Origin: Tribonema minus
Lineage: Eukaryota > Sar > Xanthophyceae > Tribonematales > Tribonemataceae
DNA: 64,000 nt
Assembly: GCA_017506865.1 (NCBI GenBank)
Contig: JAFCMP010000003.1
Location: forward strand, 496,001 to 560,000
Direction of reading: 5' to 3'
Part shown: one piece after another, positions 22,727 through 59,733 of the stretch
Layout of the letters: each line of letters starts with the position of its first letter
Position numbering within the stretch: the first letter of the stretch is position 1
Notes under the pieces: generated by a model
What the model saw: the letters and a program-made list of their open reading frames with translations, nothing else
The model's database searches: none
Told to the model about the DNA's origin: nothing
Program-made: the position numbers and the translations under genes

Positions 22727-23919
22727 TCAGGCTGACACTGCATTGAGCAGCTGCTTGTCGGGCTTATAGTTTAACTAAGTTACCTGTAATAATCCGTTGT
22801 GCCTCACCTGCCTATTGTGGACTTTCCCAGCGAGGCAGACAGTACAGTCGCATTGCGCACAAAACTGCTTCAAAATTACAGTACTTGAGTCAAGCTGCTA
22901 CAGTCAAATTCAGCTCTCGGGGCACACATGCGTTGCGGATCTAGTCAAGGATAGAGCACAATCATCATGTTGACATGTTGCCTCAGCAGACCATGGCACA
23001 AGCGTAATTCTTCCATCAATTCTCATGATATGCGCCGTGCACATTCATGACTGCAGTTGTTACAACCGATGTACTGCAGCATGAATGAAGCGGTCCTGTA
23101 ATCTTTTAGACAGACTGTTTGCCAACAGAGGTCGCTACAACAGAGAACGGTTTGTCAGCAGTACATGCCCAGCGGCACCGGCAGCATGGAGCACAACTGC
23201 TCTGGCGGTACCAGCAGCTGCTCCAGCGACAGGGCAGCAGCTGAGCACTGCAGCGGCAGGCACATGGCACAGCAGCACCGGCGGCAGCTGTTGCGGGCGC
23301 AGGCAATACACTGGCAGCTGCTCAGGGGCTGCAGCTCTAACAGAGGCAGCGGCAGTAGGCACGCCGCAGCCGCAGCGGTTTTGACGGCGGTAGCCAACCG
23401 GCGGCCGCCGGCGGCGGCAGCGGCCAATGTTGCAGCTGCCCCGGCGGCGGCGGCAGCACCAGCAGCAGCCGCGGCAGGGCAACGCAGCTGCTGGAGTGTC
23501 TGCAGCAGCGGCAGCCTTCGATGCGGTGCTGCGCGTCTACCCCCAGCGATGCTACAAGAAACAGCGGCACTCAAGACTTGGAGCTGGCGCGCCTGCCCTT
23601 GATGCAGACAATTGGCCGCCAGCTCAGGCTGCCGCGTCCCTGCTTGCAGCAGCAGGTGACAAGCTGGGATATCTGATGCCAGCAGCCCCTATCGCTGCTG
23701 CAGCAGCAGTAGCCACCTGTACAGCAGCCGCCTCCGCCCGTGGTGCCATTGGTCTCCCCAGCACTACTTGCAACAGTCGGAGCAGTTTTTGGTGCCAGTA
23801 GCGCCGGCGCCAGCTCCGCCACTGGTGCAGCAGCAGCACGCCAGTGGCAGGACTGACCCTGCAGATGCTGCACTTGGTGAACTACTCATGTCATTCAAGT
23901 TGCTCTGCAGTTGCAGTGT
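22727..23919. other. Non-coding stretch with GCN low-complexity region
   Basis: From 23165 to about 23870 the DNA is dominated by GCA/GCG/CAG triplets, giving long Ala- or Gln-like frames on both strands. Some segments, such as QDLELARLPLMQTIGRQL around 23570-23620, look protein-like. Frames change repeatedly and no splice model holds, so I do not call a gene. 22727-23160 shows nothing. Confidence 0.4.
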
Positions 23920-25324: not shown

Positions 25325-25961
25325 AGCGCCGTAGCAATCAGGGTACATCTCATCATCATGGCTTCCTCTCAGGCGGTGTGGGGAGCTTAGTGGTGGGGTT
25401 GACTGCTACGGTGGGGGTGGTGTCGAGGGCTGTGCTGAACGGCAGACTGTGATGGCTACGATTGATTTGTGCTGCCGCATATATTGCGCGGAACAAGCTT
25501 GTTTTTTTATTGTGCCCAATCAAAGTTCTTCGTGTGCGCGCGCCGCGCGTTTCGACCGTCGGAGAGCTGGCTTTGGAAGACACGTCATTTCGCAGCCGAG
25601 GTCATTCCACACACCCTGTCTGGTTTGAGGGGCAGGTCATCCAGAAAATCCACGGAGGCTGTTGATGGGGTTATTTTTGTGACCACTGCATTTTTTGGCC
25701 ATTGCAACAGCCATGAACTCAGCTGTGTTGACAAAACTGGTGTAGACAAAGTGGAGCACCACATGGCATGCAGCCTGAAGCCAGGGGTCTCTGGCTGTTC
25801 CGGACCAACATTTTGCTTGCATGTTTGGTTGACACTGCATTCAGGAGGCACTTCTGCACATCGCCAATGGGGCTCAACTGACAACTGTGCATGTCGGCTT
25901 GACACCGCAATGAGCAGCTTCTGCCTCATGCGCCAACGACTCAAGTGGCAGATGTGCACCA
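25325..25961 (+). repeat. Duplicated promoter/5' flank, copy B (orphan)
   Basis: Direct copy of 22113-22726. It still carries the ATG and the first dozen codons of the APS-repeat gene on the minus strand, after which homology stops at about 25325, so it is a promoter plus start without its gene. A small insertion near 25708-25728 distinguishes it. Telomere-like words flank its left end. Confidence 0.9.
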
Positions 25962-26685: not shown

Positions 26686-29600
26686 TTATTCTGCGGCCTG
26701 GTCCTGAGCACTGCCTTGTGTCGCCTGCATGCTTTCAGGGGGAGGGGGTCGATTGTGGTAGCGCCACTCCAGAATGGACTTGTCGTTGCCGCCGACGGTG
26801 ATGAGGTATCTGTCCCCGCAGGTGAAGCGGACGTTCATCACGTGAGCGCCTGTTCAGCAGGCAAGGAGTGGGTAGGGGACAAGGTTAGCAGGGCAGCCAC
26901 AGGGGTTATTCACACAGCAAACCATGTGAACATGGGGATCAGAAGGGGATGAGGGGTTACCAGGGTAGCTACGGAGGGTCACTATACAGCAAATCACATG
27001 ATTCATCACGTAAACATCAGACAGCGACATTTTCACTTTTGCAAGTGTGGCCTGTTCTGTAAGGCTACAGAGCCCGCAATAAATTGTGTGCGTGTATTGC
27101 GTGAAGGGGGGATGAGACCCGGGTTGGGGGTTATCTGGCTGGCTTGGGTATGTATGCAGCAAGCCATTTCAACACCAGACATGGTCACCAGTAAAGTCTC
27201 GGCCTGTTGCCGCTGCCATGCACGTGATAGGTTAAGTGCATCGAATCAATAGCGCCGCAGAGCTGCGAATACCACAGTGGACATGATTGGGAAGCTCGTG
27301 CCACATTTGTTTGTTGCAGCAGCTGCTATCACAGCCTTCAATAGGTGAGCCGCTAGTGACATCATAGGCCACACACTACGCATATTCCCTAACTTGAGAC
27401 TTTGGGAAATGCCATGATGTGGTCCTCCTCACGAATGTCATGGCTGCTGTGTATAGCAGGCTCAACTGTATGTTATGTCCCTACCTCTCCGCCACTTCTT
27501 GTCACCCCCACCATCGCTTTGAAGCGCGACTCTCTCACTTTCATTAGCAGCCGATTGCTGTCAATTCCCAATCTGACCCAACCAATGCAACCCGACCAAT
27601 GCAATCATCCTCAACGTTAAGACAACACTAGAGTACTTCATACATAACCGCATTAGGGGTGAACAGTTTCACTCACTGTGGCCATGGTAGCGCCGTTTTG
27701 GGGCCCCTGCCGTGATGCACGGGCAGTTGAAGAGGGAGACGCCGCCGAAGTCATCCGCCGTGGCGACGACGCGCTGATCACTGCTGCGCTGCAGTGCGTT
27801 GATATCGGTGCCATCGGAGTTTGGGGGCCTACAGGGGGCAGATCAGAGATAGCGTTAGAGCGTTGCTATGCTCAAAGTCAAATACTTCAAGTACAATTGT
27901 AATGTGAGGTCCACTGGTCTGAACTTATGGGGGAAAGCATTATCGGTTACTGGTGCGAGTGACTTGGGCAGAGTGCACTGAGTATCTGCTTGCGCATACG
28001 TATACAGTGTCGCTTTAAACATAATGCCATTGTAGCTTTGCTGCATGAGCTGAACGCTCAGCTTAATGTCCATAGAGCTTCAACACCGCCACACTTCAAG
28101 GGCCGAGCGACGCTGACGCCGACATGTGGCCGACCGCTGACGGGCCGTTCACATCAACGACTCGGAGACGCATGAAAACCCCCAGCAACTCACCTTCTGA
28201 TAGGTACATCATGCATGATTTTTGAAGTGTACGATACTGACCCTTACCCTTCTATAGCACAAAGCGAGTCACTACATAGACCTGGCCTTATCCCCTGTGC
28301 GTATATGCCTGGTGGAAGCATCGCACCGGCCTCGTTTGACGATGAGATAAGCAGGCATGTACTTGGACCTAAACGGCTCGCTCATCTTGCTGCCGCAGCA
28401 GCGTCGCTGACAGGGTGCCCTCGTGTTAGGGTTAGATGCACATTGCTCAGCGGCCGCCGCCAGGTCAAGGGCTTCAGCCAGTGAATGAAGCTCTGTGGCG
28501 AGGCTACTACCACCACAAACAATTGCGCTAGCCATAGTTTAATAGTGGACTTCCAGAATCCAACAGTTACAACTGATGGCATCGGTCAACCAAATCCTGT
28601 GAACCACACCAGCATTTGACATAGATTCATCACATCAGTGAATCACATGGATGAAAATGCATCTGCACATGTGTACACTTGCCACATGGCCACAACCGGA
28701 ATGCCTAGCGTACATGAGCCAATGCATCGTCCCACGCCTGTCGCACAAATAAATCATAACGATGAATCATATCGATGAACCACATCAACCCACAACACGA
28801 TGATCACGCTCGCTCACCAAATGGCCATGACGGGGAACCCCAGCGTACAGGTATAGGTTGCCCAGTGCCCGTCCCCCTCGATGTTGTCGCGCGAAGAGCG
28901 CAGGGCTTTGCCCGTCGCTGCATCCCAGTAGAGCAGCTCGTTGGCGCCGCATGTGCTCTGAATGACACGACTGTCTGTGGACCAGCTGCGGTGCGCAACC
29001 AGGGTTAGGGTTGTGTTACGGTTAGGGCTCTTCAGCAGGCAGATAGGCTCAACGCGTTCTCGCGCTGCTTGCATCGTTGCTGCGCGCACGAAGTGTGCTT
29101 GTGTGGCGCGACTGTCCGTGGACCAACAGCAGCGCGCAACCAGGGTTAGCATTAGGGTCAGGGTTAGGGTGAGGGTCAGGGCAGTCCAGAGAGGCACATG
29201 GGTTCAGCGAGTGCTTGCGGCACCTGCGCCGTATAGGTATCCTTGATGTGGACGTTGCTAGTTAGGGTTAGGGTTAGGGTTAGGGTGAGGGCAGCTGAGA
29301 GTGCGCGTCTGCATGTCTCAACGAGGAACCACCGCACACCAAACGCGGCATTCTGCTCGAACCTAGAGCAGCCCGCACTTTGTCAGTACTGTACCATGTA
29401 CACAGAGTGAGGGGCTTAAGCAGCAGGTGTGTGTGGCAACCTTTCGTCTTTACGCAGGATGTGACACTGAAAAAGGTTCATTGAAAACAAGACCAGCAGT
29501 GCCTATGTTCCTGTCGAACCCCCTGGCCTGCCTGCGTAGGGAGGACTCACGCATGCCTGCAAAGTACCCAACAAAAGCAGCCCATCGTTGTGGAAGCCAC

Positions 29601-32600
29601 ACCCATCATGTGGACAGCAATCATCGTCTTGTAGATTATCGAGAGCCTTATTAGGTCGCACCTCAGATCAGAGGGATGCTGGCGCTGCGCGCACCTGGTT
29701 GGCAAGTTTAAGTTGACAAGTTCAAGTTGGCAGCCTCACTTTGGGCCCTCAGCTGCGACTATTGGCCATGCGTACATCACTTTCCGGGCTAAGCACGCGA
29801 TCTCATCAATGCAAGGCTGCGCACACGACCTTGTCAATGCAAGTGCACTACGCAACAGACAGCACAATGATCACGCCGCGACGCAGAGGAACATACCATC
29901 AGGATAACTTCAAGGGTGTCAAGTCGCTTCCTCGGCGTGCCACAGTGCGCGACGCACCTCGTGGCCATCCCAACGCTCGCTGCAGCAACAACTGATGGTC
30001 ATCATCAAGTACACACATGCCTACATGATACCCGTATAAAGTCTACCACTGATCAATGGCACACCGAAATACTTCGAGCCTGGAGAGGCACTCACTCAAT
30101 GCCCACACCTCACTCATACCTACATACAATTCTAAAGTCACTAATCAATAGACACCGAAAATACATTAGGCCTAAAGAGGCACTCACTCTATGTGCGTGA
30201 CGTAGCTCGTATGGCCGCGGCAGCGCGCGGTGCGCTTGCAGCGCAGCCCCCCTGCCCCCTCGTTCTCGAGCGCGTAGATGTCTATGAAGTTGTCGTGACT
30301 GGCGGCGGCAAGTGACTTGCCGTCCGGTGAGAACTTCAAGTCGTCAATGTCCTCCTGCAATGTCAAAAGAACATCAGCAAAATGAACAAGAAGTTGTTCA
30401 TTAGGTGCCGTCGGTGACGGCTTGATGCCGTCCATATGCTCCTGAAACGTAGAGGGACAAACGATCTCAAACTGGGTGGCATGACTGCCCCTATTGAACA
30501 CGTTGATGCCACTGCCATTGCGGCATCATGCACCGAATGTTGCCAGCCCCAAACCTACAATAGAAGCGGTGTTCTGACATGTCATTGAGCTGACTTAGAG
30601 CACGTGTAGCGACTCACTTTGCAGCACCTCAACGCGGCCACGCGCCGCAACGTATCAGCGTCGTACATGGCTACTCGAAACCCTACGTCTTCACCTTGCC
30701 CCAGCAAAACTGTACTGCCAAGCAGTCTGCTACGTGTGCTGGATATAGAATGTATAGTGACTCACTTCGCAGTGCCTCCACGCGGCCACGCGCCGCAGCG
30801 TAGCGGCGCTGTGCACCGCTAACCTTAAACCCTACCTCTAGACCTTACCCCAGCAGTGCTGTACTTCTCTGACATGAGCTTACATACATCATAGCAAAAC
30901 GACTCACTTCGCAGTGCCTCCATGGAGCCACACGCCGCAGCGTATCAGCGCTGTACACGGCCAACCCTAAACCCTACTTCTTCACCTTACCCCACTTCTA
31001 ACCCTTACCCCAGCAGTGCTGTACTTCCCAAGCATTCTGACATGTTCATACATCATAGGCTGATTCATAGCACAGCGACTCACTTCGCAGTGCCTCCAAG
31101 CAGCCACGCGCCGCAGCGTATCAGCGCCGTACACGGCAATCGCGCCGCGCCTCAAGCCGGCGGCCAGCCAGCGGCCATCTGGCGACCACGCCAGCGAGCG
31201 GCCGCCGCGCGGCAGCAGCGCTCGACCAACGGGGTCTGCGTAGCCGACTGCCCAGATGCAGAGCTGACCGTCCTCCGCTGCGGTGGCGTAGGTGGTTTCT
31301 CGTGATGGGTGGGTGGCTAGGGCCTGCGGAGAAGCGTGCGCGCATAGCTAGGGTTAGGGTTGGGGGTAGGAATAGGAAGGGTAGCCAGCGTAGGGTTAGG
31401 GCTTGGGTAGGGGTGGGGCCAGCGTGTCAGGTATTGGTCATGGGGCAGATGTTGCCTCGATTGCTGTGTCCGTATTTGTATTTGTCTGCGCAGCCTTTCT
31501 GCCGCGGAGCCGTTGCGGCAAGCGGTGGCGTACGCAAGTCGTGAAAAGCATATGAGGTTTGCTTGTGAGCACAATGAGGTTCGCTTGCGATGTGCTATAA
31601 AGAGATTTGCTGCTGTGATGCAGCGTCTATGTGAGACCGGTTCTTGAGCGGAGTTGTAGGCTGACCTCACCGCAAAACAGTGACACTCCTTCGATTTGTC
31701 ACATTCCTCCGCACCTGACCAGGGGCGAGGGTTTGCTGATAATGTAGGGCTACTACTAGCCGTCGTTGACTTGAGGTTAGCCAACCTCAAGTGTCGATCA
31801 CGCAACAGCGCGCTCACGACAACGAGCAGCCCTTCAGCCCATCTGCCATGGCGCAAGCGCAAGCGCGGAGCACTGCCACGATGCGGCACGCAGCTGAGCA
31901 CTGCCACAACACGCGATCGCTGCCACAGTCGAGTGCTGCCGCACCTGCGCGCGCTGCCGAGCACTGCCACAGCGCGACCGTCGAGCGCTGCCGCACCTGC
32001 GCGCGCTGCTGAGCTCTGCCGCAACGTGACCACCACGCCGCAAACTGTTTTCTCGGCTGTTGTGTGCTTCGCTACAACGTCAACAACGCAGTTGACGAAA
32101 GATTGTGTACATGTGTACAATTACACAGGCGGGGCAACCACTGTGGGCTAGGATTGAACTGTATGAGCGCTGCCGTACCTGCACGCTGCCGTAGTGCCCG
32201 CTGGTGACCAAAAACCCCTCGCCATACCCCCTGCCACAGCGCTCAAACCCCCATATTTCCCTCTTGTCGGTACCCACAAACAGTGTCCCACACTCATCGA
32301 CTGCCAGGTCTATTGCGCGTGCACGGCTGCCACTCTGGTCCTGCCTAGCGCCCGTTTTCAGGCCAGCGGGGGCGGGATCTTCGGTGGCAGTGCTCGGCTT
32401 GGGGCGACTGGCAAGAGCGGGGCCGCCGCGGAGCAGCGCTGCGGCGCGCCAGGCCTGAACAAGGGGATTTGAGGGTTAAGGTGAGTAGGGTAGCAACTCT
32501 CAAGGCACGGTTGTGTGGTGTTTCCGTCCAAAGAAGATTAATCAGGGTTAGGGTTACAGCTGTAGTATGCAAATGTGTCGCCCTCGGCATTGAATTTTGT

Positions 32601-35600
32601 GAGACGACAGATGCTAAGCTGTACAACAGCTGATGATGCACACAATACATACCCATCCATGCGTGCTGCCCACCCGTTAAACTCTATCCGCGACACACCC
32701 AGGATCAGAACATGTGTCGCGTATGGCTTGTTGAGATCAAATGCTGCATGCATGCGCTAATAAATGGTATATGTATACTAAAATATGATGCTGAGCTGCA
32801 CATCAATTCTGAGATGAGGGCGGGGATGAGTTGTGGGGAGTTGGGTGTTGATGGCAACGGTGACTGAGAACTGTACCCTCCGTGTCCTACTTTGATTCGT
32901 TCTGCAGGTCAGCTACACATTGATCCTCTCTGTGTACTACGCTTGTACTCTTTGTGATGCAACCGAGTTCATCGCTGGACTCCTGGTACCTGACTGGGGT
33001 CTGCAGATGCGGTTCCACTTCGCCCCCCCAAAGGCCCCCCTTGAACTCCCCGCGAACCAGTTTTGCCACCGCTCGCAAACAGCGTTGCCTTCGCCTCCTG
33101 AGTGGTCAAGGGTACGGTTAGAGGTAGGTTTGTGTTATGCTTGCAGTTTCGACTCAAGGATGCAGTTGACAAAACGGCACAAGTTAGTAACTGCCAAAGG
33201 CCGACTGGATCATGTTGCTGGGGGTTATAACCCTATATGTAAGGGCCACTGAGGTTGCGGTTAAACCTGGCACTAAGGGGGGTTAGGGAGTCCATGCCCT
33301 CTACAAAGGCTTGCCATAGTCGCTGATGCAACCCTGAAAGGAGTACCTACTTATTGTGCAACCCCCCCCCCTCCCCCCCCCATGTAGTACTAGTGACTTT
33401 CGCAACGCCATGCGCGCACGTGTCGGTGATGTACGCTACCCATTGCGCGCATCAGACCAAAGTCACTAGTCAACCATCACGACACATGACAGCAGCAGCG
33501 CTCAGAGCAAGGCCGCGACATCACAGGCTGCAGCAGTGCTCGGTGCGATTGCCGCATGCATGCGTCATTGGCGTTTTAGAACCACCCCAAGCATATGCTC
33601 CGCACTGCACCAGAAGGGTCAGGAATCTGCCGTCAGGACCAGCACTGCCTGAGCACTGATGCTCTGTACTGTGCACTGTACAGCTGTACCATTGTACAGA
33701 GCCAGTGAACTGTAACGCACTTGGCTTTGTCGCGCCCCCTGAAAGAGACATCTTCAGCTGCTGCTCGTCTTGGAATCGTCCACGTTAGAGCCTTGCTCAC
33801 TACGCGAGCGATGGGCAATACGAATTATCTCGAAGTCCATCTACATACACAACATGTGAAAACGATACAGGGTGTATCTGGGCATAAAAAGTTATGTACA
33901 CCGCTTCACTGTATTATTACATCGCGCCGGCCTGCGCTCCGTCCTTCAAGTCTGGAAGGACGCTGGCACAAGTGCTCGTCACAGTCAATTTCAGGTGCTC
34001 GGACAAATGTGCTGCTGGTGATGATTCTGCCACTTCATCACTATATGTTTACAGACGCCAGCACCGTCAACACCACCAGCAGCGTCATTGACCCATCATG
34101 TCAATCACAGCACTCATGCGTGCGTCGCACCTTGTGCCCCAACAAGTTCCCATCCTCACTGCGGACCGCAGCATCAGCGGGCAGCAGCACTGAGCACTGC
34201 TGCACCCTGTCAGCAGCGCTCCACACGCGCACCGCGCCGTCGTCGCCCGCGGTCGCAAAGGCGGCGGCGGCGGCGACGGCGATGCCATTCACTGCGCCGG
34301 AGTGCGCTGAGAAGGCCCACGTCGCCCTGCCGCCCACCATGCAGTACACCTGCGAGGGGGTTAAAGTTGAAGTGGCGTGTGAAGTATTAAAGTTTGCACG
34401 GCACAAGTTGAGAGGTTTTCACAACAACACTTTGAAGCGCTGTAAAGGATAAGGCTACAGGGGGTACCTCGTGTGTGCGTGATGTACGTTGCCAGTCTCC
34501 ATTGACGGTGCGCTTACTAGGAGGGTTAGGGTTAGCAAAAGTGCGCTCAAGAACCTGGCCTTTAAGACAGAAAGTCGCCCACAATGCTCTGAACCCTCCT
34601 GGCCCTAACACTTACTTTTGCCCATTCTCTTTCGCAATGAGAAAGCCTCATGGCGCGGCGCACACGCACAGTGCCTCATATACCTACCTAGCCCTCACTA
34701 TAAACTTATACCTGACCATTCTTTGCGAAGGCCCCATGGGCATTGGCGCAGCGCACACACCCACACTTTGTTTACTATAACCCTAACCCCAACTGATTTC
34801 TTAACCCTATTTTTATATCCATACACAGTCTTCACCCTACATACAGTCTGCCAATTCTCTGCGCTGACGAGGAGCCATCACCAGCCCTGGCCCTAACAAA
34901 ACCGGAATTTTAAACCTGCCCGTTCTCTACCCCGTAGAGAACGCCTCCGCTGACCCTAACGCCTAACCCTAACCTAACCCTACGCTGGAGCAGCATGGAT
35001 ACACAGCATTTTACATACATGCCTGCTCCAACTGTACCGCAAACCCAACAAACATGCCCGCCCATTCTCTATCCCGTTGAAGGTGCCTCTGCTGCGCTGG
35101 CGCAGCGTGAACACACAGCACCTTGTATACATACCTGCCCCAGATCTGCCGCAGACTCAACACATATACCTGGCCCATGCTCCGCCCATATGAGGAAGCC
35201 TTCGGCGCAGCGCACACGTACACAGATCCTGACACAAACACTTGCCCAGATCCCAACTCAACCTAAGTACTTCTAGACGCGTACCTGCCCGTTCTCTGCG
35301 CCGATGAGGAAGCCCCCGCGGGGCGCTGGCGCAAGGCACACGCACAGTGCCTGGCGCGGCGCCGTGGCACTGCCATATGTGCCAGACTACAAGCGTACAG
35401 CAATCAAACACGGAGGGTCAACTTCAGTGCCACTTTGAATGAAAGCACACGCACAGCGCCTGGCGCGGCGCCGTGGCACTGTTGTGTACGTGCCGGACTG
35501 CAAGCGTACAGCAATCAAATGTGGGGAGTCAACTTCAATGTCAACTTCAACTTCATGTGGTTTCCAAGGTCAGGTAGTTGCGCATGCCACAAAGCGGCAG

Positions 35601-38600
35601 CTGCACGCGCATGCTGGGGATCAGGTTGCCGAGGCCCGCAGTGCTCAGCAATGCAGTTCCCAAGCGCATGTACGTACACACATGCTTACAGGTACATTTG
35701 TACAATGCCAGGACATCAGGTATGCACAGGCTATCATCATCACTGCCAACGAGAGGATCACATGAAGCTCATAGAGCTATTCAGAACTGCTGTTCGAAAT
35801 CGCTGACCTTAGCTGAAAGCTTGAACTGTGCTGGAGCTCCCTTTCGTCCCCCTGGCGTCTCTTCAAGCGTCCAGTGTTTGAAGTGGCCCGATGCACCCAC
35901 GGTGGCAAGAGTCGTCCCCTCCCCCTCCCCCCAGCACACAGCGTTCACCTGTCGCGAACAGTTGCAGCGCGCCTCAGCTTGAATCATCGGCGTGAATACA
36001 TGCATGACTCCACAAACATGAGTCACTAATAGTATCAGCGTGCATGAGTGCATACTTGATTCCAGGCTCAGGTTGCACTACACCAGGAGGCCCCTCACGA
36101 CCCAACAGTCCCACAAACAGAGCGGAGCACTCTTTCTTGAAAACAGCTGATCTGAGCGCTGCTGTGCATTGAACCCCCCCATTTGGACCTCAACAACGGC
36201 CGCTTACCATAGGGGGGGTCCCATTCTGAACGGGGGCCTCTGCCAGCAGCCTGCCACTTGACACCTCCCAAACCCCCATGCAGTGGTGGTCATCGCACCC
36301 CACGGCAGCGAGCAGCAGGGGGGAGGTGGGGGTTCCCGAGGGGGCGCGCAGCGCGCACGCGCAGACGCTTCTCTCAAAGAACCCTCCTCCGAGCCTGGCG
36401 AGTTCTTCCAGGGTGTCCACGGACCTGCGGGGCGCGAGGTAGTATGATATAGGGTTAGCTAACCCTAGCGCTCAAGTAGCTGGGCAGCGGCCAGGCAGTT
36501 TCCAGTGTTAGCTAACCCTAGTGCTATTTCTGCGGGGCAAGGAACAGCAGATTTCTAGGGTAAGTAACCCTAGCGCTCAAGTAGTCGGCAGCGGAACAGG
36601 TTATAGGGTTAGCTAACCCTAGCGCCCAAGTACCTGCGGGCACGGGGCAGCAGGTGCCAGGGTTAGCTGACCCTAGTGCTCCACTACTCAGCAGCAGTCA
36701 GCAGCAGCGGGATGCGACGGGTTGAGTGATGAGTTTGTGCACTTGACTGCCTGTCGTTGCGGCGCATGGCAACGCTCAGCATGTAACAACCTCAGTGCTG
36801 AAGCAGCTTCGTGTGCGCCTTCCCCGGCGCCGTCCTTGTGTGAGCTGTCGCCTTGACGATGATGCTCAACCAGCATCTGTGTGTGTACGATACGTAGGTG
36901 TACCCACGCCATCACTCACCAGACGCACACCCACGGCCGCTTGCCGACCTGCCCCGTGGCAGCGATCCGCCCGTCCGCCGTCAAGCTCAGAGCGCTGACA
37001 TCGTCCGTGTGCCCCATGAAAAACCGCTGCCCCCCGCCCCCCTCCCCCCCGCCGCCCCCAACCACCACCACCGCGGCGCAAGTCCACACGACCCTGCCGC
37101 CCCCCGCCGCACGCAGAGCACTGCTGCTGCTGCTGCCGTAGCCGCGCGCGCGCCGCAGCTTGAGGTGCGCGTTCGGCAGCGCCGCGGAGCGCGGTATGAG
37201 CGCTGCCGCGTCGAAACCGCTGGGCGCGGCGACGGGGGTCTTGCAGTGGCGGTAGCGGATGCGCCGCGGCACTGGGGGGGGAGGGGGGGGGTGAGCGCTG
37301 CTGCTGCTGCCTTTGGGGGGGGGCTGGTAGCGGAACGGTCCCGAGCCGACTGCGGGCGCGGAGGGCTCAGCGGAGCGCACGATAACCTGTGCAGGGGTTT
37401 GGGGGGGGGGGGGGGGAGCGGGGGGGGGTATTACAAGGAGGCACTGGGTAAAGAGGTGCTTTGAGTACTGCTGCTGATGTGCGCGCGGCAGCAAGGCCTT
37501 TAAGCGAGTCGTTTGTAGGGTGTGCATCGTGCGATGAAGAATGTGGCCATTGTGAGTTTTTGCAAGGTCGCCCTGTGTACCGTAGTGTATTATGAGCAGG
37601 TGTCATTTAAGTATGAACGCTGCACAAGCTCAAAATGAAATGGCTAGTGCGTACAAAGTACTCTGATGTGTACATGTTTGTACACCATCATATATGCTTT
37701 GTTGCAACGGCTTGCTCTTGCACTTGATTCGAGAACATACATGCATTGGAAGTACATGCACTTGAATTGCATATGCAAAGTGAAAGCTCACTCATCACAA
37801 ATCAGCGTCTCAGCGCAGCACCAATTCCGCCTCACCTGCTGGAAGCCAAACTTGTTGGGCGCGCGCTGCTCTCGCGCGTACAACGCCTCGATGAACGGCC
37901 GGTAATCTCCCTCAGCGCTCAGTGACCACAGCTGAGCAATGTCACCATCGGACAGCGGCGCCGCTTGCCCGGGCAGACGCAGCTCCGCAAGCGCTGCTCT
38001 GAAAGCCGGAAGGCTCAGCCTGATGGCGCGAGAGCGCAGGGGGGAGTGTGCGTCACCCTTTCAGGGAAGTTACACTTCAAGTTGTTGGTTTGCAGTTGAG
38101 TTTACAGGGAGTGTCACATGCCAGAAGAGAAGTGCATTTGAATGGTTTACGATGGGAGGGCTGAGCGACCACCGAGGCTTGTGGAAAGCAGGCTCAGCCG
38201 GGCGGCGCAGGGCATGTGTGCATCACACTTTTGAAAAAAAACGTCTAGTTTACCTGAGTGGTTCCTGAACTGTTTCATCCACAATTCACGTGTAACATTG
38301 TATGGACCAAGTAAAAACAGTGCCCAGTCACAGAGAATCCCTTCAAACGCGTCATTGTTACAGCCACACAGCAGATCATCCTGATTGCGCAATGTATTAA
38401 AAGCGACCTCTGCACAGAATGCACAGCAACAAGCCTTGAGGACTGCTTGACAGCATCAGATCAACTGAGTGCCTATCCTCACAGCTCATCTGCATGCAAC
38501 GCAAGCTTGAAATCCGCATCCAAAATGGTAATGTACATAGTACCCAAGTATGGCACACATACATACCTATACCCCTCCTCCGCCCCCCCGCCCCTTGCAT

Positions 38601-49281: not shown

Positions 49282-52200
49282 ATGGCACGGCATGAGAGCC
49301 CGTTTGATATGCAAATCAAGCTGTTGATGATAGGCGACAGCGGTGAGTGCACCAGCGCTAGCAGCTCTCCGAATACCTGACCAATTCCCCAGCGGGTGCT
49401 TCAATGGTTTTGTGGCCTCATGAATTGCCTGTGTATTTGCTTGGGCAACAACCGTCGTTGGCAGCAGAAGAGGCTGTGTGAATAAACTAAAAGGCTTTCC
49501 GGCTGTACATAATTCGTGTAAACTTTGAAAGGTATTTGAGGTACGAAAGCGACAACACACTCTGGAGTTGATTGAGGTTGAAAGGGCAACCCCAACTGCT
49601 TTGTTTGCTTATCTCCTAACCCCGCATACCTTGATTACTATTATGGCGAGATGCAGCGTCGCATCAGCATTCTGACATCAACAGGAAAGGGAGTGTCCAC
49701 AGCAGTTGACTACTTACCTGTATACTCGGAAGAAACATCTTGCCTTTTGGTAAAAGCGGACATGCGAGCCATGCAGCACTGAATTCATTGGCGTATTGGT
49801 ATGTACATACGCGAGGCTGGATCATCTCGTGCTGTTATTTACACATCAAGAGAAACATGCCTCACACTCGATGAGCGGACAGGTAGGTGTTGGTTCTCTC
49901 CTTGAATATATGTGTGTTTGCGTCATTCTTGCAGTTTCAATCACACGCACGTACAAGCCATGCTGAAAGTTGCGTAGTATTCACGTGTTTGTCCAGCTTT
50001 GTCACAGTATAGTACCTCCCTTAAGGCGTGCCCTCCTGTTTTGCGGACGGCACAGCATGATAAATGCTGATCTCACGCATCAATCTACAAGCTAGTCTTT
50101 AGAGTTTCAGCCATGTCAGACCATAGCAACCACCGCTCGCCAACGCAGCAAGCCATTGTCTGGACCTCTGCCTAGGCATCAGCTCATGACAAACTTTCAC
50201 TCTAAATCTAAGGGTCCGGGCCTGAACCCCAAGCAGTGCTTCCATGAGTTGCATATTGTGGCACGTGCGTATGCGCTGCGAGCCATGGCAGCCAGCCTCT
50301 GAGCATACATTACTGCCTTTGAGGTCAGCAATGCGCACCTTCCACGTGCCTGCCGCTGCAGCCTGTGCTGCTGCTGCCGCTGCTGCTGCCGTCATCGCAC
50401 TGCCGCCACCACGCTGCGGTGGCAAATTTGCCTGCCGCCGCGACTGCAATGCGCAAGAATGCAGGGGACCGTTCTGCATTATCAGCTCTCAACATGTACC
50501 AGTTCCACTGGCAGGGCATGTGCCTTATTAAGAGCAAGCCTCTGTCGCTGCCACCGCCCCCGCCGCCGCGGCTGATGCTGCCGTCGCTGCAGCTGATGCT
50601 GCCGCCGCTGCCAATACTGCTGCCGCTGCTGTTGCCACCGCTGCCGCCGCTCATGCTGCCGCTGTTGCTGACATCACTGCTGCTGATGCTGCCGCTGCCG
50701 TCGCCGCTAATGCTGACGTCGCTGCTGCCGCCGCTGCTGCTGCTGCCGCCCCCCCCCCCGCAGGCGTCGGCAAGACGTGCCTGCTGCTGCGGTACGCGAG
50801 CGACCACTTCTCGCAGACGTTCATCACGACCATCGGCATCGACTTCAAGATCAAGAACATTGAGCTCGACGCGAAGCGCGTCAAGCTGCAGATCTGGGAC
50901 ACGGCGGGGCAGGAGCGCTTCCGCACCATCACCACGTCGTACTTCCGTGGCGCGCAGGGCATTTTACTCGTTTACGACGTCACCGACAAGAAGTCCTTCC
51001 AGTCAATACGGAATTGGGTGGCGCAGATACAGCAGGTACGGGGCTCTGGCGTATGGAGTCGCATGGACCGCTGCTTGCGCTGGCGCCGGCACAAGCGCAG
51101 CAGTGAGCATCTGGCGTACCTCGCTCATTCATGTGTCATTCATTCATTCATTCATTCATGATGGCTCTGTTGCTGAGCACTGCTGCGCCGGTTGATCGCC
51201 GCACAGCATGGGCGCGTGCACGTGAACAAGTTCGTGGTCGGCAGCAACAGACATTTGTTCATTCATCCATTCATTCATTCATGCATTCATTCATCATAGC
51301 TCTGTCACTGAGCACTGCTGCGCCATCGAATCGCCGCACAGCACGCGGACGTGCACGTGAACAAGATTCTCATTGGCAACAAGTGCGACATAGAGAATGA
51401 GAGGGAGGTGAGCACGGAGGAGGGCGCGCAGCTGGCGGCGGAGTACGGCATCCAGTTCTTTGAGACGTCCGCCAAGAACGACATCAATGTCGAAAAAGGG
51501 TGAGTGAGGGAGACTGTGCTGCTGGAAGCAACTGCCGTAAGATAACAGCAGACTCTGCAAGAAGGTCCCCGGAATCTGTCAGCGGGGGGCGCGCAGGTGC
51601 TGAGCACAGCACACAAATCTGATGTGACGGGTCTTAGCACCGTGTCTACAACGGTATCCTGCTACAGTGGCAAAGGTTGCAGCGCTCAACTGCTGGCGGT
51701 GCTTAGGTGGCACAGTCCCGTGACCACGGGAGCGCTGCATGCACTCACTCAATGAATGCTGACAGGGCCCATGCTTGCTGTCTGTGCATCCTCGCTGTAC
51801 TGAGCAATGCAAGAAGGTGCTTGTGATGGTGGCAAAAGTTGCTGAGCCTTCTTGCATCACATATATTACCCAAGCCTCATGCGCCTCTCAACAAGTGCGC
51901 TGTGTTTTGTTCATTTGGCTGTGCTAAACTCTGATGCGGCGCTTGCACGCAAAACCGGTCTCAGTTGCAAATCTGCTCCTTGAGATGATGAGGGATTTAA
52001 AACTGGCAGCCGCTGTCTTGGCACGCTGTCACGATGGCAGTAACGCGCTGGCAGCTGCAGCACGCAAGATGTGAGCAGCCACTGCATGTCTGATACCTGC
52101 ATATATAGGTGATTTGGGCCATGCTGGTGAAGCCCTTTTGCTTGCATTCGCCACAACTCTCAGCCGCCCTGCATCCGGTGACGCTCCTCTGCTCCGCGCA

Positions 52201-52331
52201 GCTTCATCACGGTGGCGCGTGAGGTCAAGAACCGCCTCATGACGGATGGCGGCACGCAAGGGGCGCGCGCCGCCAACACAGTGGGCCTCTCTGCGCCCTC
52301 CAAAGCCAAGAAGGCCAGCGGCTGCTGCTAG
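49282..52331 (+). CDS. RAB8: Rab8/RabE-type small GTPase
   Basis: Four exons with agreeing phases, 49282-49342, 50764-51035, 51342-51499, 52202-52331; 206 residues. All G motifs are intact: GDSGVGKT (P-loop, split by intron 1), TIGIDFKIK with the switch-I Thr, [14 protein letters not shown] and ETSAK. The Rab family marks IGIDFKIK and [14 protein letters not shown], followed by a [13 protein letters not shown] switch II, place it in the Rab8/10/13 (plant RabE) group. The C-terminus ends SGCC, the geranylgeranylation site. Expected role: tethering of post-Golgi vesicles and transport to the plasma membrane or cilium. Intron 1 (1.4 kb) ends in a 200-bp GCTGCC-type low-complexity run leading into the acceptor. 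Intron 2 carries a diverged copy of the start of exon 3. Confidence 0.93.
50530..50763 (+). repeat. GCTGC(C/T) low-complexity tract before an acceptor
   Basis: About 230 bp of imperfect CTGCCG/CTGCTG triplets ending CCCCCCCCCCGCAG at the Rab8 exon 2. Frames over it are Leu/Pro-rich or Ser/Gly-rich artefacts. Confidence 0.8.
51139..51298 (+). repeat. Two (CATT)n tracts flanking a duplicated exon head
   Basis: Tetranucleotide CATT runs at 51139-51160 and 51258-51295, each followed by GATGGCTCTGTTGCTGAGCAC-like sequence. They mark a tandem duplication of about 137 bp; the second copy includes the true acceptor and start of the Rab8 exon at 51342. Confidence 0.8.
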
Positions 52332-52966: not shown

Positions 52967-55900
52967 ATGGAGGAGCAACAAAGCCAACTGGCGGCGCAGG
53001 CGGACAAGCTGGCTGCAGCGGGAGACGCAGCAGGGCTGCAGGCCCTCTGGGGGCGGATAATCTCAGATGATGTGCCTCAGATAGTGGCCAGACAGGCTAC
53101 GGCGCACTTCGCGAAGGTGCGGCATTGGCTTACACGATTGCAACAGGTAGCACCAGCGGTGCTGCAACACGAGACGCCTTTCTGCAGCTGCAACAGTATG
53201 TGAAGCGATGGATCATATATGGCGATGCGCATGAGTAGCAACTTCAAATCAAGTGAGAAATATGCCTGCACATCAGGTTGATAGATGCAGTTGAGTTTGG
53301 TCCCATTGTGCACAATGCAGCAAAACTGCCCGCAGCCCAAATCACATGCTGCCACGTTGTCTGCATGCATTTTCGATGCAGTGACCGTCCTTTCGCCATT
53401 TCAATGAGCTGCAAGAATGTGATGTGCAACAGTACTCATGAGAAGTGTTAGAGCGACAGAGATGTTTAATGTGCCCTGTAATGTCTAGGGAGAGCTGCAT
53501 GTCGTTGCAGCGCAATCACATATTAAGGCACACAACGACGTGTTGCAACGTTGAAGCATCGAACCCACATGAAGCACTGCTTTTGTCATCGACACTTCGC
53601 CAATTCAGCTACAACCTAACCCTAAATCTGATGTCTCCGGCCATCCTAGGCTGCGCTGGGTGTCACGCCTGTCGTGCCATTCATCAAAACTTGCATGTGA
53701 AAGCATATGCCGAAGTAGCAGTTTCATATATGTTTTTGTGGGTAAACGGGCCGTTAGATGCGCAAGAACTCGTGTGCGCAGCTTCACAGGCGTCAATGGC
53801 GTCGCCTCTGGGTGCTGGTGGAAGCGGCGACGAGTGCGCACATGGCCGAGCGCTGCCTTGCCATGCTGGTCGTACGCACAAATTATCGCTTGCTCATACT
53901 GTTACAACCAAGGAGAGTTGTGCTGCTGCGCATGCGATTATAGTCTGCATGGAAACGAGTCAAAAGATCGTAGAGCTCTACTTAGTTGACAAGGCGTGGT
54001 TGGCCGTCAGATTGAATGCCTTCCGCCAATAGCGTAGCACACTCACCAAGTACACGGCATGACACTTCAACAGACGAAATCTCTCTCAACTTCCACACCC
54101 AACCCCCCCTGCGCGCGCAGGCGCTCGTCGCGTCGCCGCTTGCGCGCGCGGAGGACGGCGACGTGTTCCTGCAGATCGCCGAGCACTGCCTCGCGGCGCT
54201 GGCCGCGCGCGCGACGCCGCCGCCCGCGGAGGAGGCGGAGCGCACGCTGCGCGAGGCGCTGTTTGACCACTACGTCGCCGCGGAGCTGTTCAAGGATGCG
54301 GCAAATGCGCTGGCGGGGCTGAATCTGGAGGGGGCTGCGGGGCGCGCGCTGTCGGACGAGGAGAAGGCGGAGGTGCACGTGAAGGTGGCGGAGGCGTTTC
54401 TGGCGGATGACGTGAGTATTGAAGTAGGGTTGACCTAGGGCTCAGGAGATGGTAGAGTACCTACATTTTAGGGGGTGCATGTGCAGGTGGCCAAGGCGTT
54501 TCTGGCGGGCGACATGAGTGTTGAAGTAGGGTGTAGGAGGGGTGCTTGTGAAGGCGGCCGAGGCGTTCCTGCCGGATGACGTGAGTGTTGAAGTTGAAGT
54601 AGGGCTCAGGAGGTGTTGAGGTAGGGTTTGGGGGGTGCTGCACATGAAGGTGGCCGGCGGATCAAGCAAGAGTTGAAGTAGGGTTTATCGCCTTACTCCA
54701 ACCTACGCTCGGTTTGGACCTCATGAGTGTACTGGTATTGATATTCTAGGGCTCGCATATGCAATCAGCCACCGCTGTCTTCGTGCCCCCCCCTCGCCCC
54801 CACCCCCGTGAACGCGGGGTGCATGCGCATACACTCCATTTATGCCAATGGTCAGGCCTGCGACGCAATCGATGTGTAGCCCTAGCTTTGGGTGACGCTT
54901 TGAGCGGCGACTCACACAACGACTCACACACACAAGTCAGACCTGCCATGGCAACATCGAAGTTCAGCATTCCTCTGGTGTGTATAGGGGGTGCTCCTAC
55001 GACTTGGTATGGTTGATTTCTGTGATGTTGACATTGTGTGTTTCAGTAGCCTGACTGCTGTTAAGTGGACGACCGTGATGGCAGTCCGAGAGACTACTCT
55101 GTCTGACTGCATAGTGGAGCCTGACTATGCCGATTGCGGTGTCAACAGGCTTGACAGCAAACATGATTCTAACAATGCTTCGCGCCATGCTCAATGCAAT
55201 CAAAATCATTCTAATGATGCTGCCAGCAAGCAATGCCTCCTCTACGCAGGCGACTCAGGAAATGTTCCTCAAACTTGAACGTCAACTGCTGCCAAGTAAT
55301 TGAATCTACTTCAATATTGACTTCAAGTATTGTGTCTGCAGGAACCGGACGCGGCGGAGAATTACGTCAACAAGGCGTCGCCGCGAATGGCGGAGGTGCA
55401 GAACTGGCAGTTGCAGTTGAGGTACCGCACTGTGAGCGCGCGCGTGCTGGATGCCAACCGGAAGTTCCTCGACGCCGCCATGCGCTACTACGAGCTCAGC
55501 CAGGCACGTCAACTTGCGCAGTTGAAGTGCAAACCACAAAAAGCAGTTTGGGTGAATTGTGTCTTTTTTATGCTGCCATGCGCTACCTCGAGCTCAACCA
55601 GGCACGGCAACTTGTGAACTTGAAGTGAACAACTAGAATGCAGATCCACTTCTGATTGGCGCCAGACAAAGCCTTCGGGTAAGGGTCAGTGCAAGGGCGC
55701 CTCTGGTGCTTCCACGAGCTCCGACAGCTTCTGATGGAGCTGGCAGCAGGTCTTGCTGCTTTTGATACCACTTGACAGTTGGAGTCGTGTCACCCTGTGG
55801 CGAGCGTTATGCAAGTCGGGGTCTGTAGTACGATTTGAATTAGAGCCAGAGACACCTGTATTTGCAAGGCAGATACGTAGATATGTATCCAACACGTCAT

Positions 55901-58900
55901 AAAGAGGAACTGCTCCCTGTGCTTGACAGCAATCACATCTGCTGTGAACTAGTGATGCCGCTGTTTAGGCCCCATTTCACTATTGCATTGCCCTGGTAGC
56001 CATAGCTAAGGCACCTATCATCTTGAGTTCCATTGGTATGCTCACCAGTGCTCACTCACTTTGTCAGCTGTCTGATTGCATCGCATTCTGGCCCTGCACA
56101 TGAAGAAAAAGCAGGCCGCTCAGATTGCCGAGCGCTGCCATTTCGCATCATTGCATTGTGTCCAGATGTGTTGAGCATAACTGCTCAGTGCGCACCACTT
56201 CGTACTGAGCACTGCCTCTGGCGGAGCACTGCTGCCCTTGGCAACTGGCGTGCCAGGCGGCGAAAATCGCCAAGCGCTGCCAGTTCGCCTCATGAAGTTT
56301 GTGCAGACTGGGTATTAGGCACTACTTGTTGCCAGGCACTGCTTCTTACTGGCCGCTGCTGCTCCTCTCGTAAACAGGCGCGCCAGGCGGCGCAGATCGC
56401 CGCGGAGGACCTGCTGGAGCTGCTAGGGCGCGGCATCACGTGCGCAGTGCTCGGCAAGGCCGGGCCGCAGCGCACGCGCATCCTCGCCAACTTCTACAAG
56501 GTGCGGTGCGGAGCGCTGCCTGCCTCTTTGTTTGGTTTCATAAGTAATGACCATGCTTGGTGAAGTATGTTGCTCGGCAAGGCTAGGCCACAGCGCACGC
56601 GCATTCTCGCCAATTTCTACGAGGTGCGGTGCGGAGCGCTGCCTCACTTGAAGTTGATCATGCTTCTTGAAGTGTGTTGCGTGCGCATTGCTCAGCAAGG
56701 CTAGGCCACAGCGCACGCGCATCCTGGCCAACTCCTACAAAGTGCGGAGTGCCTTTGGTGAATCTTGAAGTTGCCCATGCTTGTTGAAGTCTGTGTCTAG
56801 CGTACAGGCCAGGCCAGGCCACGGCGCGCACGCATATTGGCAAACCTCTTTGAGGTACGGAGCGGGCTGCTTTCTTGTCGTCGATGCTTCTTGAAGTGCG
56901 CGTTGGCACTGTGCGCCTCACCTGGCGTGGCCCTCAACAGCATCATAACAGCCAAGTGTTTCAATCACCATGCATACCCCTTTCGATTGGTCAACCAAGC
57001 AGTCATGCATCTTTCGATGCTGTTAACATTCACGCAGGATCCGCGGCTGGCTAGCCTCGAGAATGTTCCCCCGTTCCAGGCGCACTCCCAGGTGCTGACC
57101 AAGATGTACAAGTGCCAGGTCCTGCGCAAGAATGAGATGAAGGCCTTTGAGGAGGTATGTACGTATGCATTCATGTCTTTGTTGAGCATTCTATACCTTC
57201 CCTCCGAGTTTCAAGTTAAACGTTGGTACTAAACGTTGGTACTTCAACTTCAGCACATGCTTTTAAGTACATGCAAATATACGAAAAAAAGCCTCAAAGT
57301 CTTGTGTGTACATATTAAAAGTTAGGGTTAGGGTTAGGGACACTGATGATGTATGCACATCCATGCGCATGACAGAAGCGTCTAAGTTGTTCGCAGAGAA
57401 GTCGACATCGCGGGTAAAGGTGGCGCTTCTTGAAGCTACATTGCATTAAACATGTGTAAGGCGGACTTACCCCTGTACTTTGGCGTCTGAGTGATCCAGG
57501 AACACAGTGGGTAAATCAGGATGGCAAGCATATGGTAAGTAGATATGTGTGGGTGGGTGGTGGCATGACCTGCTGCCCGTGCATTCAGCATATTCTCATA
57601 TTCTCCAAGGCGATGGGGCATCATGTGCAATACTATAGCGCACTGCAGTTGCGCATGCAGGAAGGCCCTGCCAGTTGCTGTGCACCATCTTCATGCGTAC
57701 GCGCTTCGCAATGACGTAAGCGCCCAGAATCTACGTGCGCATCCATCGCATCTTGGCTGCTCTCTCGCACGAACCGGCGCAGCACCTGAAGGTCCGAATC
57801 ATAAAAGTATGCTCAAAGTCAGACCTAATCAGACCTACCTACTCATTAGGTGGTACTCACAAGTTTCATGCGTGTGCGCTTTGCGGTGATTAAAACCACA
57901 GGTCTTTGTATGTTCTGTCAGCGCTCAATTTCTTGCCATCTCTCTCAGGGTCTTGCGCAGCACCAGAGGTCCAAAATGAGGGACGGCTCATGAAGGCAGA
58001 ACCGCCTTATTAGTGTGGTTCACAAGCTTCACATGTGCACTCTTAGCTCGTAGCTCCGGAGCATCACCGACGCGCCACAACTGATCATCGTTTGAACTTT
58101 ATTGTCTCTCCCAGGGACTGGCAGAGCACCAGAAGGCCAAGATGGGGGATGGCCTCACCATACCAGAGCGTGCGGTCATTGAGCACAACATGGTGGCAGC
58201 GGCACACATCTACGAGAACGTCCGCTTTGGGGAGCTGGGAGCGCTGCTTGAAATACCCCCAGCAAAGGTGAGCTTGGGGGCAAACATGCGCACTTCATGT
58301 TTGAAGTTGAAGTGTGTGTTGAGGTTTGTGGCAGCGGCACACATCTACGAGAACGTCCGCTTTAGGGATCTTGGAGCACTGCTTGAGATGCCCCCAGCAA
58401 AGGTGAGCTTGGCAGAAACGCGCAGGCACTTCATTGTTGAAGTTTTTGTTGAAGTTGTGGCATGCTGGCGGCGGCATCCATTTACCAGAACGTCTGCTTT
58501 GGGACGCTTGGAGCGCTGATTGAGATACCCCCAGCAAAGGTGAGCTTCGGGGGGGGGCATGTGCACTTGATGTTTGAAGTACGCGTTGAGGTTTGGCGGC
58601 GTGGTGACGGCTGCACCCATTTGCGAGGATGTTCGCGTTGTGGTATTTGGAGCGCCGCTTGAAGTACTGGCAGCAAATGTGTGTTTGAAGATGTCGTGAA
58701 AGCATGCAGTAGCGCCGGCAGTAACGATATCATGCACGCATGCAAACGCTGTTTGGAACCTAAGTAGGTCTTGGTGTTTGAAGTACGTCTGCATGGTGCA
58801 TGGTGCAGCGCTGCGGACTTTTGCAGATGCTGCATTGCCATTTGAACAAAGCGTTGCACATGCTGTATCCTCATGCAGTTGTGTGAGCTCTGTTGGTACG

Positions 58901-59733
58901 TCAAGACTTGTTTGAGTATGTACAGCAATTTTGAATCAGCATCACCTTTTCAAAGAGACTATTTGGTTGAGGAAACCCTGACACAACGAGACGTAGTGGT
59001 ATAAGCGTGACCCAACGTTATAGTTTTCAAGTTGCTGTTAAGCTTCATCATGCTTCAAGCCATGGCACTAGCATGGATATGAGGAGACTAGGTATTGGCA
59101 AGGCAGCATGGGGTGTCTCTTTGAGGTGCCCTTTGATGGATTGTACTCGCATACTTCTGATCTACAAAACCTCGCGATGTTGCCGCACACACACTTGTCA
59201 AGAACCGTGATTACATGTGCTGCGACAACCACCGCATGGCACATCGTGCCGTCCTTCAACCAATACGCACGACTTTCTCTGAGCCTGTGTACCAACATCA
59301 GCACTGCAAGCATTCTTGATGCTTTCTGTGACTCAGATGCGGAATGATGCATGGTCTGAGAAGTTCTTCCCTGCCGCAACAAACATCATCCCCCCCCCCC
59401 CCCCCCCCCCCCCGGAGCCTGTGCATCACCATCAGCACTGCTAGTGTTGTTGATGCTTTCCATAACGGATGAAGCACGGTCCGACGCATCTTCCCATGCC
59501 GGATAAATTATTATTTTCCCCTTGCATTTGCGCAGGCGGAACAGGTAGCGGCGCGCATGATCTCCGAGAAGCGCCTCGAGGGCTCCATCGACCAAGTCGA
59601 TGGCGTTCTGCAGCTGGGCAGCGGCGGCGGCGAGCTGCAAGACTGGGACGAGCGGCTGGGCGCTGCATGCGCGCGCATCGCGACGTGCGTGGAGGCCATC
59701 GGCGCTGAGCATCCGCAGCTGGTGGAGGCGTGA
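52967..59733 (+). CDS. CSN4: COP9 signalosome subunit 4
   Basis: Seven exons, every junction phase 0: 52967-53116, 54121-54411, 55342-55503, 56378-56500, 57038-57154, 58115-58267, 59536-59733; 397 residues (human CSN4 has 406). Recognisable CSN4 stretches: [96 protein letters not shown] with [13 protein letters not shown] (winged-helix PCI domain), and the C-terminal [20 protein letters not shown] removes NEDD8 from cullins; subunit 4 is a PCI scaffold that senses substrate. Intron 3 appears to start with GC (CAG|GCACGT), since no GT keeps phase. Introns 2, 3, 4, 5 and 6 contain diverged tandem copies of adjoining exon ends. Confidence 0.93.
53949..54034 (+). repeat. Dispersed intronic repeat, copy 4
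   Basis: Blocks AACGAGTCAAAAGATCGTAG, AGCTCTAC, TTGACAAGGCGTGGTTGGCCG and GCCTTCCGCCAATAGCG in the same order as the copies at 13840 and 45983. Lies in CSN4 intron 1, sense orientation. Confidence 0.75.
54370..54665 (+). repeat. Tandem copies of CSN4 exon 2 end
   Basis: The genuine end (GAGGCGTTTCTGGC then GATGAC before GTGAGT) at 54370-54411 is repeated at 54475-54520, 54541-54595 and, shorter, 54635-54665. The third keeps GATGACGTGAGT exactly. Each is followed by TTGAAGTAGGG. Confidence 0.85.
56095..56870 (+). repeat. Copies of both edges of CSN4 exon 4
   Basis: Before the exon, its first bases (CAGGCGGCGCAGATCGCC) are echoed at 56095-56150 and 56240-56300. After it, the end (CACGCGCATCCTCGCCAACT plus AAGGTGCGG) is echoed at 56570-56645, 56684-56745 and 56806-56870. 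Confidence 0.85.
57757..58680 (+). repeat. Copies of both edges of CSN4 exon 6
   Basis: The exon head (GCAGAGCACCAGAAGGCCAA) is echoed at 57757-57800 and 57946-57985. The tail (CACATCTACGAGAACGTCCG to CCCCAGCAAAGGTGAGC) is echoed at 58327-58425, 58455-58545 and weakly at 58600-58680; the first two keep the donor. Confidence 0.85.
59279..59515 (+). repeat. Tandem 118-bp duplication and poly-C run in CSN4 intron 6
   Basis: GAGCCTGTG followed by ACCATCAGCACTGC and GTTGATGCTTTC occurs twice, at 59279-59392 and 59414-59515, separated by a run of over twenty Cs (59390-59414). Confidence 0.75.

Follow-up and report, generated by a model that had tools for sequence, protein, structure and literature searches.

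How introns grow longer other than by the insertion of transposons is, to our knowledge, poorly documented, and the question is raised by three genes in a window of 64,000 nucleotides from the genome of Tribonema minus (contig JAFCMP010000003.1, positions 496,001 to 560,000 of the forward strand), the whole of which was analyzed here and whose positions are counted from its first letter. The genes encode subunit 4 of the COP9 signalosome (CSN4), a protein of the EML family and a Rab8-like protein. An initial annotation had pointed to the span 53117-59535, which runs from the first base of intron 1 to the last base of intron 6 of CSN4, as containing introns built of repeated and diverged copies of the exon edges that they adjoin. 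Our results make it probable that introns at this locus have been lengthened by recurrent tandem duplication across existing splice junctions, followed by decay of the spare copies. The copies form head-to-tail arrays, the arrays are anchored on junctions, their similarity is specific to the introns' own exons, and the copies have decayed.

The gene content of the window is eukaryotic, with GC-rich exons, and the three modelled genes comprise 19 introns and 38 exon edges. The spliced CSN4 protein matches the solved chains of COP9 signalosome subunit 4 over residues 16-384, with a best E of 1.9e-68. Every CSN4 intron is in phase 0, with GC-AG borders in intron 3. A search of viral and genome contig collections with the CSN4 protein retrieved no relative. 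The spliced EML protein matches EML1 (E 1.1e-79, residues 88-687), although the frame joins uncleanly at introns 1 and 6, where an extra exon or another border is possible. The Rab8-like model matches Rab8A over both of its junctions (E 1.6e-68) but lacks the beginning of the coding sequence. Since homology is continuous over the junctions used, the copies described below are taken as intronic rather than as missed exons.

All the copies previously listed for CSN4, after exons 2, 3, 4 and 6 and before exons 4 and 6, were recovered (Table 1), whereas the accompanying count of five of six introns has to be raised to six of six, since the start of exon 2 is copied in intron 1. Copy alignments numbered 40 at a score of at least 32, some of them weak or devoid of exon bases. 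On the donor side a copy typically starts 20-80 nt within the exon and continues past the donor into intron sequence, and acceptor-side copies are the mirror image of this. Neighboring copies are mostly spaced by 52-182 bp (331 bp in CSN4 intron 1), and Tandem Repeats Finder described arrays of 123 bp x 2.6 and 135 bp x 2.6, that is, head-to-tail units of a minisatellite-like kind. In a comparison of the window with itself by BLAST, 42 of the 45 pairs lay within 6 kb and all 42 were direct. The GC donor of CSN4 intron 3 is retained as GC in its copy. On the acceptor side of the same intron the copy at 56192-56271 is clear, and that at about 56112-56166 was recognized mainly through its match to the first.

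Whether these matches exceed chance was addressed edge by edge. The terminal 75 nt of each exon (66 nt for EML exon 5) were aligned to the adjoining intron and, as controls, to the 18 other introns and to 200 dinucleotide shuffles of the own intron, and an edge was accepted under the strict test when none of the 18 introns and none of the 200 shuffles did equally well. Fourteen of the 38 edges passed, namely those of CSN4 introns 1 (3'), 2 (5'), 3 (both), 4 (5'), 5 (3') and 6 (5'), of EML introns 5 (5'), 8 (both), 9 (3') and 10 (both), and of Rab8 intron 1 (3'), weak members, each with z 4.4, being the 3' edges of CSN4 intron 3 and of EML intron 8. The probability that the own intron would rank first among 19 by chance for 14 of 38 edges is 3.6e-9. 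A score of at least 36 was reached by 13/38 own edges. Among the controls it was reached by 0/18 distant parts of exons set against the neighboring intron and by 2/284 edges compared with the remaining introns of their gene, and one of these two hits is that of the 66-nt EML exon 5 to copies of itself in the intron that follows. Lowering the score to 32 gave 14/38, 0/18 and 6/284. The earlier view that chance is inadequate to explain the copies is thus upheld. At least one strictly copied edge occurs in 11 of the 19 introns (6/6 in CSN4, 4/11 in EML and 1/2 in Rab8), so that the pattern, which had been said to recur in EML and Rab8, is present in both genes but not in all of their introns.

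The association with junctions was also recovered by a scan blind to the annotation, in which the whole window was searched in overlapping 1500-bp pieces for direct repeats of at least 45 bp at an offset of at least 40 and with E of at most 1e-5, low complexity being filtered. Twenty-one repeat clusters were obtained, 16 of them within the modelled parts of the three genes. Thirteen of these 16 are arrays that cross a junction, or 11 if those of EML exon 9 and EML exon 3, which include only 6 and 8 exon bp, are strictly left out. Among the non-crossing clusters, 31856-32025 and 34980-35201 lie in introns where weaker exon-edge copies overlap them, and 59281-59460 is truly interior. No link could be made between the five clusters outside the three genes (Table 1) and the exon edges of modelled introns, and the repeated use across genes that had been suggested therefore stands for the three genes and gains nothing from the clusters beyond them. 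Moreover, no further cluster was found in the other gene-bearing parts of the window (e.g., MFS-like, EF-hand and KAT11-like pieces, where introns are unmodelled), and the phenomenon is accordingly uneven along the window.

These arrays were probably produced by the head-to-tail duplication of units of about 50-180 bp, each lying across a splice junction already in place, and the repetition of this event made the introns longer. A donor-side unit typically comprises 20-80 nt from the exon end together with the donor and a few tens of bases of intron, with the mirrored arrangement at acceptors. The exon-proximal splice site would remain the one used, as homology rather than RNA suggests, and because of this the mRNA would be unchanged and the extra unit invisible to selection; unseen in this way, the unit would then decay. 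In the clearest arrays later duplications appear to have retaken the exon-proximal unit, pushing older units inward. The first duplications were probably non-homologous, and similar units may afterwards have multiplied by slippage or unequal exchange. Inspected by eye rather than by a statistic, the breakpoints show little common sequence beyond the copy itself, a finding compatible with an initial event of end joining or template switching. Lengthening by tandem duplication across junctions, as originally proposed for this locus, is supported, the pattern being repeated in three genes and at donors as well as acceptors.

The decay of the copies was followed by unit-by-unit alignment in four arrays, those of CSN4 exons 2, 4 and 6 and of EML exon 8. 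In all 24 pairs divergence was greater in the intron part than in the exon part, which is what constraint on the functional exon alone would produce. In the arrays of CSN4 exon 6, CSN4 exon 2 and EML exon 8, each distance between two copies, measured on the exon part, was larger than both of the matching exon-to-copy distances, while in the CSN4 exon 4 array this held for one of three pairs, the others comprising a near tie and one value in between. Changes from exon to copy affected 151 of 1069 sites from G/C to A/T and 84 of 507 sites from A/T to G/C, rates that correspond to an equilibrium G+C of 0.54 (calculated by hand) compared with 0.53 in the introns. The copies look like neutral debris, a neutrality that we infer.

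The order in which the units arose is partly readable. Divergence of the exon part grows with distance from the exon in the arrays of CSN4 exon 6 (0.10, 0.15 and 0.27), CSN4 exon 4 (0.11, 0.13 and 0.29) and EML exon 8 (0.08, 0.12 and 0.18), and these three arrays support a conveyor-like picture in which the youngest unit lies beside the exon. This picture is not a general result, and a serial order would apply elsewhere only by extension from these arrays. As a general rule it was rejected, since among 25 pairs drawn from all automatic alignments that contained 20 exon bp or more, the nearer copy was the more exon-like in only 14, a count in which two units of CSN4 exon 2 were merged into one alignment. 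Sorted by hand, such pairs amounted to 5/15 in EML intron 5 and 9/10 elsewhere.

The result of 14 out of 25 also belongs to a group of observations that weigh against recurrent junction duplication with decay as we have described it. The CSN4 exon 2 array is flat (0.16, 0.15 and 0.16), and the copies of the CSN4 exon 4 array have common differences from the exon, so that some copies were apparently made from copies. Recognized copies cover only 2529 of 15772 intron bp (16%), with a maximum of 50% in CSN4 intron 4, and 24 of the 38 edges in the three genes have no significant copy in the strict test. Besides, differences between exon and copy are fewer at second codon positions (86/527) than at third ones (127/531), which we attribute to the lineage of the exon, and differences between copies, summed by hand, were 62/208, 33/211 and 57/216 at first, second and third positions, where the low second-position value could come from composition or from some past coding constraint.

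The most serious rival is that tandem duplication is ordinary and intron-wide and that junction arrays merely stand out because selection freezes the exon copy, an explanation that is possible but that we consider unlikely on balance. A copied exon edge remains visible for longer than a copied intron interior because its decay is largely confined to one of the two members. Single duplications, with breakpoints and ages drawn uniformly, were simulated under the length, offset and E-value thresholds of the scan, in three settings of constraint and age for which the constraint, indel and age ranges were guessed. A bias of the postulated kind did appear, as junction events were detected in 72/117, 85/114 and 111/115 cases (62-97%) and interior events in 224/478, 232/480 and 421/477 (47-88%). 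Nonetheless, the junction share expected among detected arrays was only 24% (72/296), 27% (85/317) and 21% (111/532), against 13/16, or strictly 11/16, observed, with p between 4e-7 and 9e-6 for the former and between 5e-5 and 6e-4 for the latter. A simulation with looser thresholds led to the same conclusion (55/79 junction and 206/419 interior events detected; share 21%, 55/261; p 4.7e-7 for 13/16). The gap could be narrowed in part by repeated renewal of junction arrays from the conserved exon, a process that lies outside the simulation.

A functional role of the copies as decoy or regulatory splice sites under selection, acting as alternative sites or in unproductive splicing, is improbable. 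Many exact donors have been kept, such as the GTGAGT common to the three copies of EML exon 8, and translation through the intact decoys meets an in-frame stop in 19 of 20, which would suit nonsense-mediated decay; in addition, the first copied donor of CSN4 exon 6 (+135; 58268-58402) is open and in frame, adding 45 codons, and is a candidate for an alternative isoform. However, the splice dinucleotides are intact in 20 of 26 copies compared with 17.1 expected from copy identity, without clear excess, so that the sites are not conserved beyond the rest of the copy, and the copies mostly differ more among themselves than from the exon. This count draws on the 28 of 40 copies long enough on both sides, two with a gap at the site being excluded, one of which (the second of CSN4 exon 4) shows an intact GT in the unit alignment. 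The reservoir of decoy splice sites imagined in the initial annotation is hence not borne out by the dinucleotides, and 19 of its 20 intact members would bring a stop. Somewhat less probable still is the descent of the copies from tandem exon duplications, as failed mutually exclusive exons. One alignment in EML intron 5 does span the acceptor, the whole 66-nt exon 5 and the donor (identity 0.67), and edge copies of this exon lie on both sides, the one in intron 4 being equalled by 7 of 200 shuffles when only exon sequence was tested; but none of the other 12 of 13 exons tested gave an alignment holding both splice sites, in a test that is insensitive since alignments touching the self-match were dropped and some copies, e.g., that of CSN4 exon 3, were missed, and donor-side units begin within the exon. 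The birth of the introns themselves from an AGGT-bearing exon segment duplicated in tandem, although it shares with our data both tandem duplication and the involvement of splice sites, is highly improbable. It predicts an intron whose 5' end resembles the start of the downstream exon and whose 3' end resembles the end of the upstream exon; here it is the upstream exon that is copied on the donor side, mostly together with its donor and adjoining intron sequence, and the downstream exon that is copied on the acceptor side or, as in EML intron 10, in mid-intron. Given this arrangement, the creation of introns, which had been offered as an alternative to their lengthening, is not supported. An origin from transposons or introners was ruled out, as the matches are to the own exon and no family sequence common to introns was found in the three genes, in line with the first impression that transposons are inadequate.

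Recurrent duplication across existing junctions thus remains our preferred reading, and the preference for junctions may stem from a mutational hotspot or from renewal of a template kept by selection. More speculatively, and although this is on balance unlikely, the junction could be a duplication hotspot and exon edges could act as selection-kept templates that emit copies, the newest at the exon and the oldest in mid-intron, in which case long introns would be largely decayed edges with readable layers of age. Junction-spanning duplication as visible in 11 of 19 introns has a clock of its own, one copy being held by selection and the others free to decay. If it were genome-wide, the growth of introns, the relation of copies to aberrant splicing and the choice between donors about 90-180 nt apart would become directly measurable, and the arrays would provide natural constructs for studying how the spliceosome chooses the exon-proximal site among near-identical donors.

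Several motifs and repeats were observed in the same window. The heptamer TTGAAGT occurs at 68 sites compared with about 6 expected (e.g., 54419-54600 and 58301-58784) and is the most enriched 7-mer after the C/G homopolymer; within the 19 introns it is found 24 times in sense and 7 times in antisense orientation, with 18 of the 24 sense sites in the first half of the intron and many within the CSN4 arrays. It was discarded as a cause of the arrays, since it is present in those after CSN4 exons 2, 3, 4 and 6 and absent from the array-bearing EML introns 5 and 8, and is therefore not required. Pairing of TTGAAGT with ACTTCAA to bridge introns was likewise rejected, because both motifs occur in only two of the 19 introns (CSN4 intron 2 and EML intron 10). 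Repeats of TTGAAGT were also encountered in 91 stretches of viral contigs, and among the best 20 by density, 19 had less than 50% G+C and none carried a telomere-like motif. Telomere-like TTAGGG runs are found inside introns, e.g., at 57321-57339 and in EML introns 7 and 9, and hand counts over the 19 introns placed AACCCTA in the second half of the intron at 11 of 13 sites and TAGGGTT in the first half at 10 of 18. The C-rich AACCCTA would presumably also supply pyrimidines and CTAAC, which raises the idea of a branch point. Outside the three genes, the 117-bp tandem repeat at 12112-13046 is about 80% identical between units and has long open frames on both strands, perhaps encoding a protein with a 39-residue repeat, and the region 18276-22081 holds diverged copies of a Gly/Ala-rich open stretch (Ala/Pro/Ser-rich on the other strand) at offsets from 75 bp to several hundred bp. 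Two copies of a 630-bp sequence, 94.5% identical and 3.2 kb apart, lie at 22104-22725 and 25325-25959, and a 22-mer taken from this repeat had no match in viral contigs.

Table 1. Positions in the window of the modelled genes, the exon-edge copies and the repeat clusters outside the genes.
Feature	Position	Strand	Remarks
CSN4 gene	52967..59733	+	7 exons, 6 introns; conceptual splicing and PDB CSN4 match
CSN4 exons	52967-53116, 54121-54411, 55342-55503, 56378-56500, 57038-57154, 58115-58267, 59536-59733	+	397 aa product
EML gene model	26686..38019	-	12 exons; EML1 structure match
Rab8-like gene	50764..52330	+	modelled exons 50764-51035, 51342-51499, 52202-52330; Rab8A homology
Exon 2 start copy, CSN4 intron 1	53787..53877	+	87 exon bp, about 72-73% identity
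Exon 2 end and donor region, three copies, CSN4 intron 2	54471..54685	+	donor GT intact in one
Exon 3 end and GC donor, one copy, CSN4 intron 3	55572..55643	+	identity 0.85
Acceptor region and exon 4 start, two copies, CSN4 intron 3	56112..56271	+	outer one weak
Exon 4 end and donor, three copies, CSN4 intron 4	56571..56876	+	units of about 120 bp
Acceptor region and exon 6 start, two copies, CSN4 intron 5	57761..57990	+	one clear; outer weak, score 36
Exon 6 end and donor, three copies, CSN4 intron 6	58328..58687	+	units of about 135 bp
Tandem array abutting EML exon 3 acceptor	36417..36701	-	enters exon by 8 bp only
Acceptor and exon 5 start copy, EML intron 4	35442..35519	-	identity 0.89
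Exon 5 end, up to six copies, EML intron 5	34605..35222	-	most with donor region
Exon 8 end and donor, three copies, EML intron 8	30572..30961	-	alignments
Acceptor region and exon 10 start copy, EML intron 9	29047..29169	-	with telomere-like CCCTAA runs
Exon 10 end and donor copy, EML intron 10	28639..28749	-	alignment and edge test
Acceptor and exon 2 start copy, Rab8 intron 1	51149..51247	+	alignment and edge test
117-bp repeat cluster, set aside	12112-13046		blind scan; within open frames
Repeats, set aside	18276-22081		blind scan
Short repeat, set aside	22584-22755		blind scan
Trinucleotide-rich stretch, set aside	50538-50769		blind scan; stops 6 bp inside first modelled Rab8 exon
Low-complexity stretch, set aside	62439-62652		blind scan; within open frame

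Comparison with known systems helps to delimit what is seen here. In tandem exon duplication, including mutually exclusive exons, a copy of an exon lies in the neighboring intron; the present copies, in contrast, are mostly partial edges with a single splice site, decayed and up to three to six in number, with EML exon 5 as a possible exception. Intronic minisatellites consist of head-to-tail units of about 100 bp with mismatches, whereas most of the present arrays, positioned on the junction, have units that take in the adjoining exon edge. Intron gain by tandem genomic duplication was reportedly described by Hellsten et al. in 2011 and by Gao and Lynch in 2009, and Zhuo et al. in 2007 reportedly associated human introns with tandem arrays. 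Titles and the beginnings of abstracts in the open-access literature on introns and duplication, a body that leaves subscription journals mostly uncovered, mentioned intron gain by tandem duplication and none mentioned serial junction-spanning arrays. Tandem genomic duplication makes new introns when the duplicated exon segment carries AGGT (PMC3443670), and the RdRp gene of potato is reportedly a case of intron gain by tandem duplication (PMC4974935). The arrays resemble such intron gain in that a short duplication lies beside splice sites and the coding sequence is preserved by splicing, and differ from it in that the duplication, frequently repeated, affects a junction already present and lengthens the intron already there. 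Novel introns of Drosophila have likewise been traced to coding sequence duplicated in tandem at sites resembling splice sites; these are new intron positions, whereas existing introns are lengthened by junction copies here (PMC2891723). Introners, finally, are a form of sequence gain associated with introns and reported mainly from fast-evolving lineages such as green algae (PMC9860276). They form families of similar introns across different genes, whereas in the three genes studied edge matches to other introns of the same gene amounted to 2/284 and the similarity of each copied stretch is to its own adjoining exon.

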